A stretch of DNA of 64,000 nucleotides from Thermococcus eurythermalis (GTDB taxonomy: Archaea > Methanobacteriota_B > Thermococci > Thermococcales > Thermococcaceae): contig NZ_CP008887.1 of assembly GCF_000769655.1 (NCBI RefSeq), positions 806,001 through 870,000 of the forward strand, read 5' to 3'. Under the pieces are notes generated by a model. That model saw only the letters and a program-made list of their open reading frames with translations. It was not told the origin of the DNA and did no database searches. The position numbers and the translations under genes were made by a program. This document shows positions 42,808-45,386 of this stretch, in pieces; the stretch's first letter is position 1; each line of letters begins with the position of its first letter.

Positions 42808-42885
42808 GGGCCGGTAGCTCAGCCTGGTTAGAGCGCGGGGCTTTTAACCCCGTGGCCGCGGGTTCGAATCCCGCCCGGCCCGCCA
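42808..42885 (+). tRNA. tRNA-Lys (TTT)
   Basis: It folds with acceptor stem GGGCCGG/CCGGCCC, D arm TAGCTCAGCCTGGTTAGAGC, and anticodon stem CGGGG/CCCCG with loop CTTTTAA, giving anticodon TTT. The T loop is TTCGAAT and CCA is encoded. No intron. A TATA box (AAACTTATAAGG) lies at about 42772-42783. A long structured repeat begins a few bases after its 3' end. Confidence 0.96.
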
Positions 42886-42888
42886 TCA

Positions 42889-44245
42889 GCCCTTGCTTCG
42901 CAAGCGCTGGCGGAAGATGATGTGCCTTTTTAAGAGTGCAAGGTTTAGAGTGGGTTTTTATTAGGGTTGTTTCACTTCAGAGTGTTTCGCTCTAAGGAGG
43001 CGCCCTTTGGGCGCTGATAGGATGCTGAAACGACTTCAAGGGGTTTTATCGTAGTGTTAAACCCAGTATGAACTTGCTTTTCCATTAGTGCACGGCTGTT
43101 TTCTGTTCTTTGGTGAGAAGGACGCTCATTTCGCCAGCCTTTCTTAAAGGCTGTTGCAAAGTTTCATCAAGGTTTGTGATTCTCTTTTGAGTTGCTGTTC
43201 TTTGAGTGGATTTCTCATTGATTGCTCCTGTGGAAAGGTGAATTTCTCTAAGGGCGTCTTTTAACAAGGGGTTCAAGCTTTTAGGCGCTCCTTTGGAGCG
43301 CGGTTTAAGTAGAACTTAAGAAGAAAGTCTAAGTCATCAAGTGAATTCAGGCTTCTACCGACCAGCTTGGTTTTGAAATCATGTTACATAGGAGCTTTGA
43401 AGGGGAATCACGAGCTTTTGGTGAAGCTTTTTCCAAAAGCTTCCTGCGCAAGCGCTGGCGGAAAAGCGAGTGCCATTTTAAAATTGCTAGGCTTTTAATG
43501 TGGGTTTCTGTTTAGCCTGCTCATTTGCTAGTGTTTCACTGTAGGAAAGCGCCCTTCGGGCGCCAAAATGAATTTGAAACTGCTTGAGGGTGCTTGTTTG
43601 GAGAATAAACTCGCTTGAGAACTGCCAAAACCTATTGGTGCACAGCTGATTTTTGCTCGTTGATGAGGGGGCAATCTTTTGGTCAAGCTTTCTTAAAGCT
43701 TGTTCGCCTTCGCGAAGTTTGATCAAGGTTTGTGATTCTTTTCTGAAGTGTTCACTCTGGGAATGTTTGCACTTTCTTAGGGTTCTGGAAGTTTGGAATT
43801 CCAACGTTCAAAGACACCTGCATGAGGGTTTATCATTACTCGCGCTCCTCCGGAGCGCTTTCAAAGAGAAACCTTTTTCGAGTTATTATTGAATAAGGAA
43901 TTCTCTGCAGAAAGCCCCCTTGAAAGCGCAAACACTCGCAAGAGCCCTCTACAGGAGTCACTAACTTTGATGAAACTTTGCCTAGCAAAGTTTCAGCGCT
44001 GGCGGAAAAGTGTTGTGCTTTTTTGAAGGTTTAAAACTTAGGGGGTTTTACTCGAAGTGCTCTTTTGCGAGTGTTTCACTTCCTCACGGCGTCCTTTGGA
44101 CGCCAATAATGGGGTTGGAAACTGTTTGAGAGTGCTTGTTTAAAGAATAAACTCGCTTGAAGGTTTATGACTTTTTTAGCGCACGATTGACTTTCTGCCA
44201 GTTAGATGAGAGCTTTTCGCAAGAAAAATTTTGGGAAAGCCTTTT
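42889..44245. repeat. Three degenerate ~546-bp repeats rich in hairpins
   Basis: The motif GCGCTGGCGGAA occurs at 42904, 43452 and 43996, spaced 548 and 544 bp. Each copy is preceded by a small hairpin (CTTGC-TTC-GCAAG in copy 1, AACTTTG-CCTAG-CAAAGTT in copy 3). About 95 bp later each has a strong hairpin whose arms differ but still pair: GCGCCCTTTGGGCGC, GCGCCCTTCGGGCGC and GGCGTCCTTTGGACGCC. Copies 1 and 2 also share a TTTCTTAAAG hairpin, an AAGGTTTGTGATTCT block and a late hairpin (GGCGCTCCTTTGGAGCGC versus GCGCTCCTCCGGAGCGC). Copy 3 is cut at about 44245 by the ATPase cassette. No CRISPR-like spacing is present. Minus-strand frames exist but are not convincing genes. Confidence 0.8.
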
Positions 44246-44284
44246 AACTTGCAGGGGTGCAAGTTACTTGTGGGGGTGCAAGTT
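44246..44284. repeat. Tandem palindromes ahead of ATPase gene
   Basis: AACTTGCAGGGGTGCAAGTT at 44246-44265 is a 7+7 palindrome. A second, slightly changed copy (ACTTGTGGGGGTGCAAGTT) follows at 44266-44284 and ends one base before the ATG at 44286. A third copy lies at the 3' end of the gene at 45367-45386. Confidence 0.75.
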
Positions 44285-44285
44285 A

Positions 44286-45368
44286 ATGCTGTTCTCACCT
44301 TACCCGAAGACCAGGAGGGAAGAACTGTTTGATAGGGAGAACGAGCTAAAGGAGATTGAGGACGCGGTTAGGCGTGGAGAGAGGCTGATCCTCCTTCTTG
44401 GCCTCAGGAGATTGGGAAAAAGCTCACTCCTAAACGTTGCGCTGAGCGAACTTCCCAACCCGTCCATCAAAGTGGACGTGCGAAAAACGTACTCAGAGTT
44501 CTCCTCGGTCAACAGGTACGTAATCGGAAAAATGCTCCTGTCGGCGATGGGTGCGAAGAGAAAACTGCTCGAAGAGGCCAAAATTTTTCTCAAAAGGGTC
44601 AGGGGAATATCAATCTCTGGGTTTAGAGTGGAGATAACTTCAAAGGAATTCTCGATAACGGAGCTCCTTGAGGCCCTCAACGACTACGGAGAAAACGCCG
44701 GTCGGGTCGTAATAGCATTCGATGAGGCCCAGTATCTCCGCTTCGGCGGTGCGACAAGGTACGATGGGATCTTGGCCTACGCCGTTGACAATCTTGAGAA
44801 CCTGACGTTCATTCTCACTGGCTCTGAGGTGGGTCTGCTCTTTGACTTTCTCAAGTTCAATGACCCCGAAGCCCCCCTCTTCGGCCGCTATCACCATGAC
44901 GTGGTTCTCAACAGGTTCAGTCCAGATATGAGTGCCGAATTCTTAAGGAAAGGGTTTGAGGAAGCCAGCTTCCCAGTGACTGAAAGGGAGATAGATGATG
45001 CCGTGCGAGAGCTCGACGGAATCCCTGGCTGGTTGGCCCTCTACGGATATATAAGGGCCACAAGGAACCTCGGACACAACGAGGCAATAAACGAAGTCTT
45101 GAGGGAAGCCAAGAGCATGATCCAGACCGAACTGTCGAGACTCTTTGCGTACAGCCCAAGGTACAGGGTTATCTTGAAAGGAATAGCCCTTGGATATTCA
45201 AAGTGGAAGGATATCAAAGACTACCTCACCCTCAAGCTTGGCTACATCAACGACTCGAACTTTTCAAAGCTCCTCGAAAACCTCGTGAAGTCTGGCTACG
45301 TGGAGAAAGAAGGGGGAGAATACAAGATTCCAGACCCCGTGCTCCAGAGAATCTTTAGAGAACTTTAA
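44286..45368 (+). CDS. Archaeal STAND/MNS-type ATPase
   Basis: A 360-residue P-loop ATPase. It has REELFDRENELKEIEDAV at the start, Walker A GLRRLGKSSL at about 38-47, Walker B VVIAFDEAQYL at about 139-149 and the sensor LTGSEVG, then a helical and winged-helix C terminus (KLGYINDSNFSKLLENLV and SGYVEKEGGEYKI). This is the archaeal ATPase family that has many copies in Thermococcales. Function is generally unknown; relatives are linked to mobile elements or defence. The ATG follows two palindromes and the TAA overlaps a third, so the gene looks like a cassette. Confidence 0.87.
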   Translation: MLFSPYPKTRREELFDRENELKEIEDAVRRGERLILLLGLRRLGKSSLLNVALSELPNPSIKVDVRKTYSEFSSVNRYVIGKMLLSAMGAKRKLLEEAKIFLKRVRGISISGFRVEITSKEFSITELLEALNDYGENAGRVVIAFDEAQYLRFGGATRYDGILAYAVDNLENLTFILTGSEVGLLFDFLKFNDPEAPLFGRYHHDVVLNRFSPDMSAEFLRKGFEEASFPVTEREIDDAVRELDGIPGWLALYGYIRATRNLGHNEAINEVLREAKSMIQTELSRLFAYSPRYRVILKGIALGYSKWKDIKDYLTLKLGYINDSNFSKLLENLVKSGYVEKEGGEYKIPDPVLQRIFREL

Positions 45369-45386
45369 CTTGCAGGGGCGCAAGTT
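45367..45386. repeat. Palindrome at 3' end of ATPase gene
   Basis: AACTTGCAGGGGCGCAAGTT differs from the upstream copy at 44246-44265 by a single base in the centre. It overlaps the last two bases of the TAA stop. The three copies bracket the ATPase reading frame almost exactly. Confidence 0.75.

Follow-up and report, generated by a model that had tools for sequence, protein, structure and literature searches.

What purpose could be served by near-identical palindromes on both sides of one ATPase gene? The question is raised by a stretch of 64,000 nucleotides (the window, G000:C1:806001-870000) from a 2.13-Mb Thermococcus-like genome. A preliminary description of it had reported 20-bp palindromes bracketing a single reading frame, with a diverged second copy ending one base before the ATG and another copy over the stop codon, and all of these positions could be confirmed in the sequence (Table 1). 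The two upstream copies, P1 and P2, overlap by one base and form a tandem doublet with a period of 19 bp; the ATG follows at 44286. Six matches to the palindrome with up to three mismatches are found in the window, every one at P1, P2 or the downstream copy P3, and six were reached in 1 of 100 shuffles. In the whole genome P1, P2 and P3 are the only good copies when up to two mismatches are allowed, the fourth match being poor and due to chance.

Table 1. Features at the ATPase locus of the window and palindromes of the other ATPase subfamilies.
Feature	Positions	Strand	Remarks
Degenerate tandem repeats, ~546-549 bp	42892-44245		third copy incomplete; not part of the ATPase unit
BRE/TATA-like element GGGAAAG-CCTTTTAA (GGGAAAGCCTTTTAA)	44233-44247	+	putative promoter
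P1, 20-bp palindrome AACTTGCAGGGGTGCAAGTT	44246-44265		putative upstream operator half; kept in orthologues
P2, diverged palindrome copy TACTTGTGGGGGTGCAAGTT	44265-44284		second half of the doublet, 19-bp period
ATPase gene	44286-45368	+	360 aa, subfamily A; PF01637 ATPase_2 and C-terminal winged helix
Winged helix domain	45159-45326	+	aa 292-347; PF21100 match 290-348, predicted structure
P3, downstream palindrome AACTTGCAGGGGCGCAAGTT	45367-45386		overlaps the TAA stop codon (45366-45368)
Subfamily B palindrome AACTTACC-N4-GGTAAGT			B ~51% identical
Subfamily C palindrome CCCCCCACCAGTNACTGGTGGGGGG			one longer palindrome, not a 19-bp doublet; C ~49% identical
Subfamily D1 palindrome AGTATCG-N4-CGATACT
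Subfamily D2 palindrome GTAATG..CATTAC
Subfamily E palindrome AACTTA(T/C)G..C(A/G)TAAGTT

To the left of the gene lies an array of 546-bp repeats, the third of which was said to be cut by the cassette. This third copy is indeed incomplete and ends before the cassette, but it does not restart beyond it, and a clean insertion into the repeat was rejected because no continuation exists on the right side. The repeat copies are only about 69-80% alike. Those at 42892-44160 hold hairpins such as TTTGATGAAACTTTGC..GCAAAGTTTC, and in other Thermococcus genomes short pieces of the 546-549-bp repeats are found again next to the ATPase locus. A tRNA-like gene (42811-42885) adjoins the array, also left of the ATPase.

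The encoded protein is assigned to the ATPase_2 family PF01637 with 73.8 bits (cut-off 33.2), and its Walker A region GLRRLGKS is conserved. Its predicted structure (mean pLDDT 92) has the architecture of the crystal structures 2QEN and 2FNA including the winged helix, with a TM score of 0.89 to 2QEN over the full length. These two structures head the list of matches, followed by origin-DNA-bound Cdc6/Orc1, ORC subunits, CED-4, TnsC and RuvB. In the model the third helix of the winged helix (aa 323-336) is likely the recognition helix. Pfam recognised the ATPase and winged helix domains only and NCBIfam gave no match, so that no nuclease, transposase or recombinase domain was detected by these searches. 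PADLOC gave a weak match to the candidate defence model PDC-S27 (window 44286-45365, E 6e-9), which is probably due to the shared ATPase core, and the idea of a known defence system was set aside.

The BRE/TATA-like element directly precedes the doublet, its final AA being the first AA of P1, and an equivalent element (gaaagcctttt, aaaaggcttatt, cgaaacctatatt) is found immediately 5' of nearly all A-type doublets. Since the doublet reaches from the TATA-like box as far as the start codon, a protein bound to it would block transcription. Judged from the sequence, the palindromes are probably private self-recognition operators, by which the encoded ATPase would control its own transcription. The Orc1/Cdc6-like AAA+/STAND ATPase would bind its own doublet via the winged helix as two adjacent dimers and repress its own gene, probably in a nucleotide-dependent manner. 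From the positions of the palindromes, their privacy and subfamily specificity, their spacing, the patterns of loss and one gain described below, we infer DNA binding, the dimer stoichiometry, repression and nucleotide dependence.

P2 also includes the Shine-Dalgarno-like stretch GGGGGTG (44272-44278), which lies 7 nt 5' of the ATG and presumably serves in ribosome binding. The orientation of this G-rich loop is fixed in A-type genes, while the P1 loop reads GGGG in some homologous copies and CCCC in others. Such flips, seen at the loci L113, L117, L118, L123 and others, resemble the loop inversion of a quasi-palindrome. The fixed P2 loop would suit a control at the RNA level, in which the doublet hairpins in the leader mRNA mask the Shine-Dalgarno stretch and are possibly bound by the ATPase. 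We regard this as quite improbable, as P1 is an equally good palindrome although it is expected upstream of the transcript, between the TATA-like box and the start of transcription, and as the downstream copies lie beyond the stop codon. The flipping loop together with the expected position of P1 outside the RNA rather fits a role of P1 at the DNA level. The two palindromes would then differ, P1 being a DNA site only and P2 a DNA site as well as a ribosome-binding site.

If the palindromes are operators of the ATPase, it is of interest how strictly the two go together. Matches with at most one mismatch were found in 42 of 94 Thermococcaceae genomes, while a reversed control pattern gave almost none. 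The matches cluster at A-type ATPase genes or at the remnants of decayed or lost ones. A few others are due to chance; real sites away from intact genes consist either of a solo doublet or of a decayed copy of this ATPase gene. A scatter of palindromes without any link to ATPase genes, which would have spoken against the proposed association, was thus not seen in this set. Close orthologues, 67-89% identical along their entire length, have the palindrome as a 39-bp doublet with a 19-bp period, which in nearly all of them ends 0-1 nt from the start codon; two Pyrococcus-like loci have a single copy instead. A small gene family ending LYAFAIEIIKRGELERMKEIEGL, for which no Pfam match was obtained, recurs beside A-type ATPase genes (L134, right flank 83-625; L118, 101-643; L147, 810-1286).

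The A-type gene is not the only one of its kind. Sixty paralogues were collected, and five further subfamily palindromes could be identified at the equivalent position between promoter and start codon (Table 1). An exact-arm palindrome is present upstream of 73 of 77 labelled genes. In a set of 81 related genes a doublet score of at least 11 is reached by 66, compared to 3 of 379 control genes (a B-type downstream copy is among the three); the family genes below this score belong mostly to subfamily C. The same genome also has DUF234-type PF01637 genes, at which no doublets were found (scores 6-8). The spacing is conserved despite the differing half-sites: of the 66 genes of subfamilies A, B, D and E, 53 scored best with a centre-to-centre distance of 19 bp in a free-offset scan, and this distance is kept in five of the six subfamilies. 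B- and D-type palindromes, too, are largely limited to their own genes or to empty loci. One D-type gene (preceded by G063:C68:14962-15036) has four tandem palindromes instead of two. Doublets are also found 5' of the ATPase relatives L083, L101 and L103 (AGTTCTGAGGTCAGAACTGGTTCTGATATCAGAACT in the latter two) on contigs labelled Staphylothermus, Thermotogales and Methanoculleus, which are metagenome-assembled genomes with uncertain labels.

On the tree of the 81 proteins the palindrome type changes only seven times, compared to a minimum of six and a mean of 50 for shuffled labels. Private sites that follow the protein tree in this way lend good, if indirect, support to the earlier suggestion that the palindromes are binding sites for the encoded ATPase. 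Only six columns in 360 are conserved within and differ between the subfamilies, and two of these, 322 and 324, lie at the N-terminal end of the putative recognition helix, where the residues read NDSN (A), NDAK (B), DDKN (C), TNAR (D1), PnSR (D2) and PePR (E). This is suggestive of site recognition by the winged helix. In the proposed mechanism the half-site has diverged to a private form in each subfamily, so that paralogues in one cell would not interfere with each other. Operators of archaeal transcription factors are typically palindromes which overlap the promoter, and it is conceivable on these grounds that a separate host regulator binds the doublets. That is highly improbable, since there are at least six half-sites, each of which goes with one ATPase subfamily irrespective of its location, and as many matched regulators would be needed; the simplest matched DNA-binding partner is the gene's own winged helix. 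Simple co-inheritance would also let palindrome and protein subfamily vary together, provided that the palindromes had some other essential role.

For an ATPase that recognises its own operator the copies beyond the stop codon need a separate explanation. Flanking on both sides, as pointed out earlier for the window, is common without being universal: downstream palindromes are present at 10 of 26 A-type loci and thus absent from most, at all 11 B loci examined and at about 7 of 12 C loci (counts by eye), and at 0 of 15 D genes by the exact-arm count, which misses variants. A doublet or single copy at the position of P3 occurs at nine other A-type loci, and in relatives the downstream copy is mostly a doublet, too. 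Autoregulation alone does not account for the further palindromes that A, B and C have behind the stop codon. The additional copy there would provide a second binding site, with DNA looping or a roadblock as possible roles. B-type downstream palindromes (e.g. at L261, G000:C1:84885-84923) provide the stop codons of both the ATPase gene and its convergent neighbour, and they may be kept after the loss of the ATPase because the stop codon of the neighbour lies within them.

The comparison of occupied and empty sites, which the preliminary description had called for, was possible for both the A and the B subfamily. The main A-type locus lies between a methyltransferase gene on the side of the S10 operon and a Pab1020-type RNA ligase gene. 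Here both occupied and empty versions were found whose flanks match (G071 versus G036, G014 versus G054, G022 versus G030 and G042), and the empty versions retain exactly one doublet. A genome of another genus (G001) represents the empty version of the arrangement in G031, the right side being 91% identical over 1.17 kb. The left flank of L138 was considered as an inverted module and rejected; it is the same locus seen from the other side and a fourth empty site. Different stages of decay are also present, from a broken, frameshifted gene (G028) over C-terminal remnants (G069, G047, G066) and a worn solo doublet (G017) to nothing at all in others. The B subfamily shows the same pattern. At 11 occupied loci palindromes lie on either side of the gene, and nine syntenic loci are empty and have one doublet or a single palindrome; in some of these nine the remaining doublet consists of the upstream P1 joined to the downstream P2. 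Since direct doublets on both sides allow the gene to be lost by recombination between them, with one doublet left behind, such a deletion is the simplest reading of the empty loci; for the operators of the preferred reading it would be a by-product.

The A-type gene is located at different chromosomal sites in different genomes. Beside rps3ae three genomes carry the gene with its promoter and doublet, while this region is uninterrupted and free of any palindrome in G062 (91% identical flanks), in the genome of the window and in others. This site shows a gain of the gene. Neither a target duplication nor a downstream palindrome is visible there. As the gene entered palindrome-free DNA, the palindromes travel with the gene and are ruled out as transposon ends. 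No plasmid carrying the ATPase was found in PLSDB by tblastn.

The notion of a cassette moving or recombining as one unit was thus borne out only in part: the precise absences with one doublet left and the varied chromosomal sites agree with it, whereas the palindromes are dispensable as ends of a mobile element. In its strict form the doublets would be att-like recombination sites, on which either the ATPase or a recombinase of the host would act, and the gene would circularise with one doublet and enter or leave solo doublets. The doublets found on either side of the gene at occupied loci, the empty A- and B-type loci and the junctions of upstream P1 to downstream sequence fit this scheme. 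We nevertheless consider it unlikely, as the gain beside rps3ae required no pre-existing palindrome, the ATPase has no recognised nuclease or recombinase domain, the decay stages at the main site point mainly to loss, and recombination between direct repeats accounts for the empty sites without a dedicated enzyme. It is just as doubtful whether the ATPases are self-addressed one-gene elements, whose sole genomic target would be the private doublets around their own gene and which would remodel this DNA in an ATP-dependent, Orc1-like manner. Little probability is likewise given to the further idea that such elements use excision, copying or local replication to persist and spread, and that the subfamilies escape each other by changing the half-site. 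For the self-recognition operators preferred here the persistence of solo doublets after gene loss is unexpected, unless the genes were lost recently or the site has another use. The single longer palindrome of subfamily C likewise speaks against this reading.

The ATPase family is expanded in the Thermococcales, with several paralogues per genome and two crystal structures. If the proposed autoregulation is true, it would be the first testable function for a family which has structures but an unexplained role. The six predicted protein-DNA pairs with their different half-sites form a natural set for studying the recognition code of winged helices, and they are also suited for asking if DNA binding depends on ATP binding. 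They would further provide heat-stable orthogonal repressor-operator pairs for archaeal genetics.

The protein family itself is already known (PF01637; 2QEN; 2FNA). The 'Walker-type ATPase' PABY2304 from Pyrococcus abyssi (PDB 2QEN) and SSO1545 (PDB 2FNA) share the full-length fold of AAA+ core and winged helix with 43% and 35% identity, respectively. In the open-access literature searched neither a function, DNA site or operator for these two proteins nor a description of the palindromes was found. What is new in comparison to them is the presence of private palindrome doublets.

The combination of AAA+ and winged helix is likewise known from archaeal Orc1/Cdc6 initiators, which bind inverted-repeat elements (origin recognition boxes), often beside their own gene. 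The similarity to these initiators (e.g. PDB 2QBY) is a match at the level of the fold only, with about 15% identity and a TM score of about 0.5, which does not place the ATPase among the replication initiators. The ATPase subfamilies differ from them by private sites at a single locus, and nothing seen here points to the doublets as replication origins.

Integron cassettes and insertion sequences are also one-gene units beside repeats with empty sites. Here, in contrast, no transposase, recombinase or integrase and no target-site duplication were seen, terminal repeats are not present at every insertion and are not needed at the insertion site, and the single doublet kept by empty sites is equally explained by deletion. 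A further parallel is offered by autoregulated transcription factors, whose operator likewise lies between the promoter and the start codon of their own gene; as in these, the palindromic site overlaps the gene's own promoter and is specific to the protein. What distinguishes the system described here is that the putative regulator is an ATPase, that the operator would be a doublet of fixed spacing which is often repeated past the stop codon, and that many paralogues have distinct private sites.
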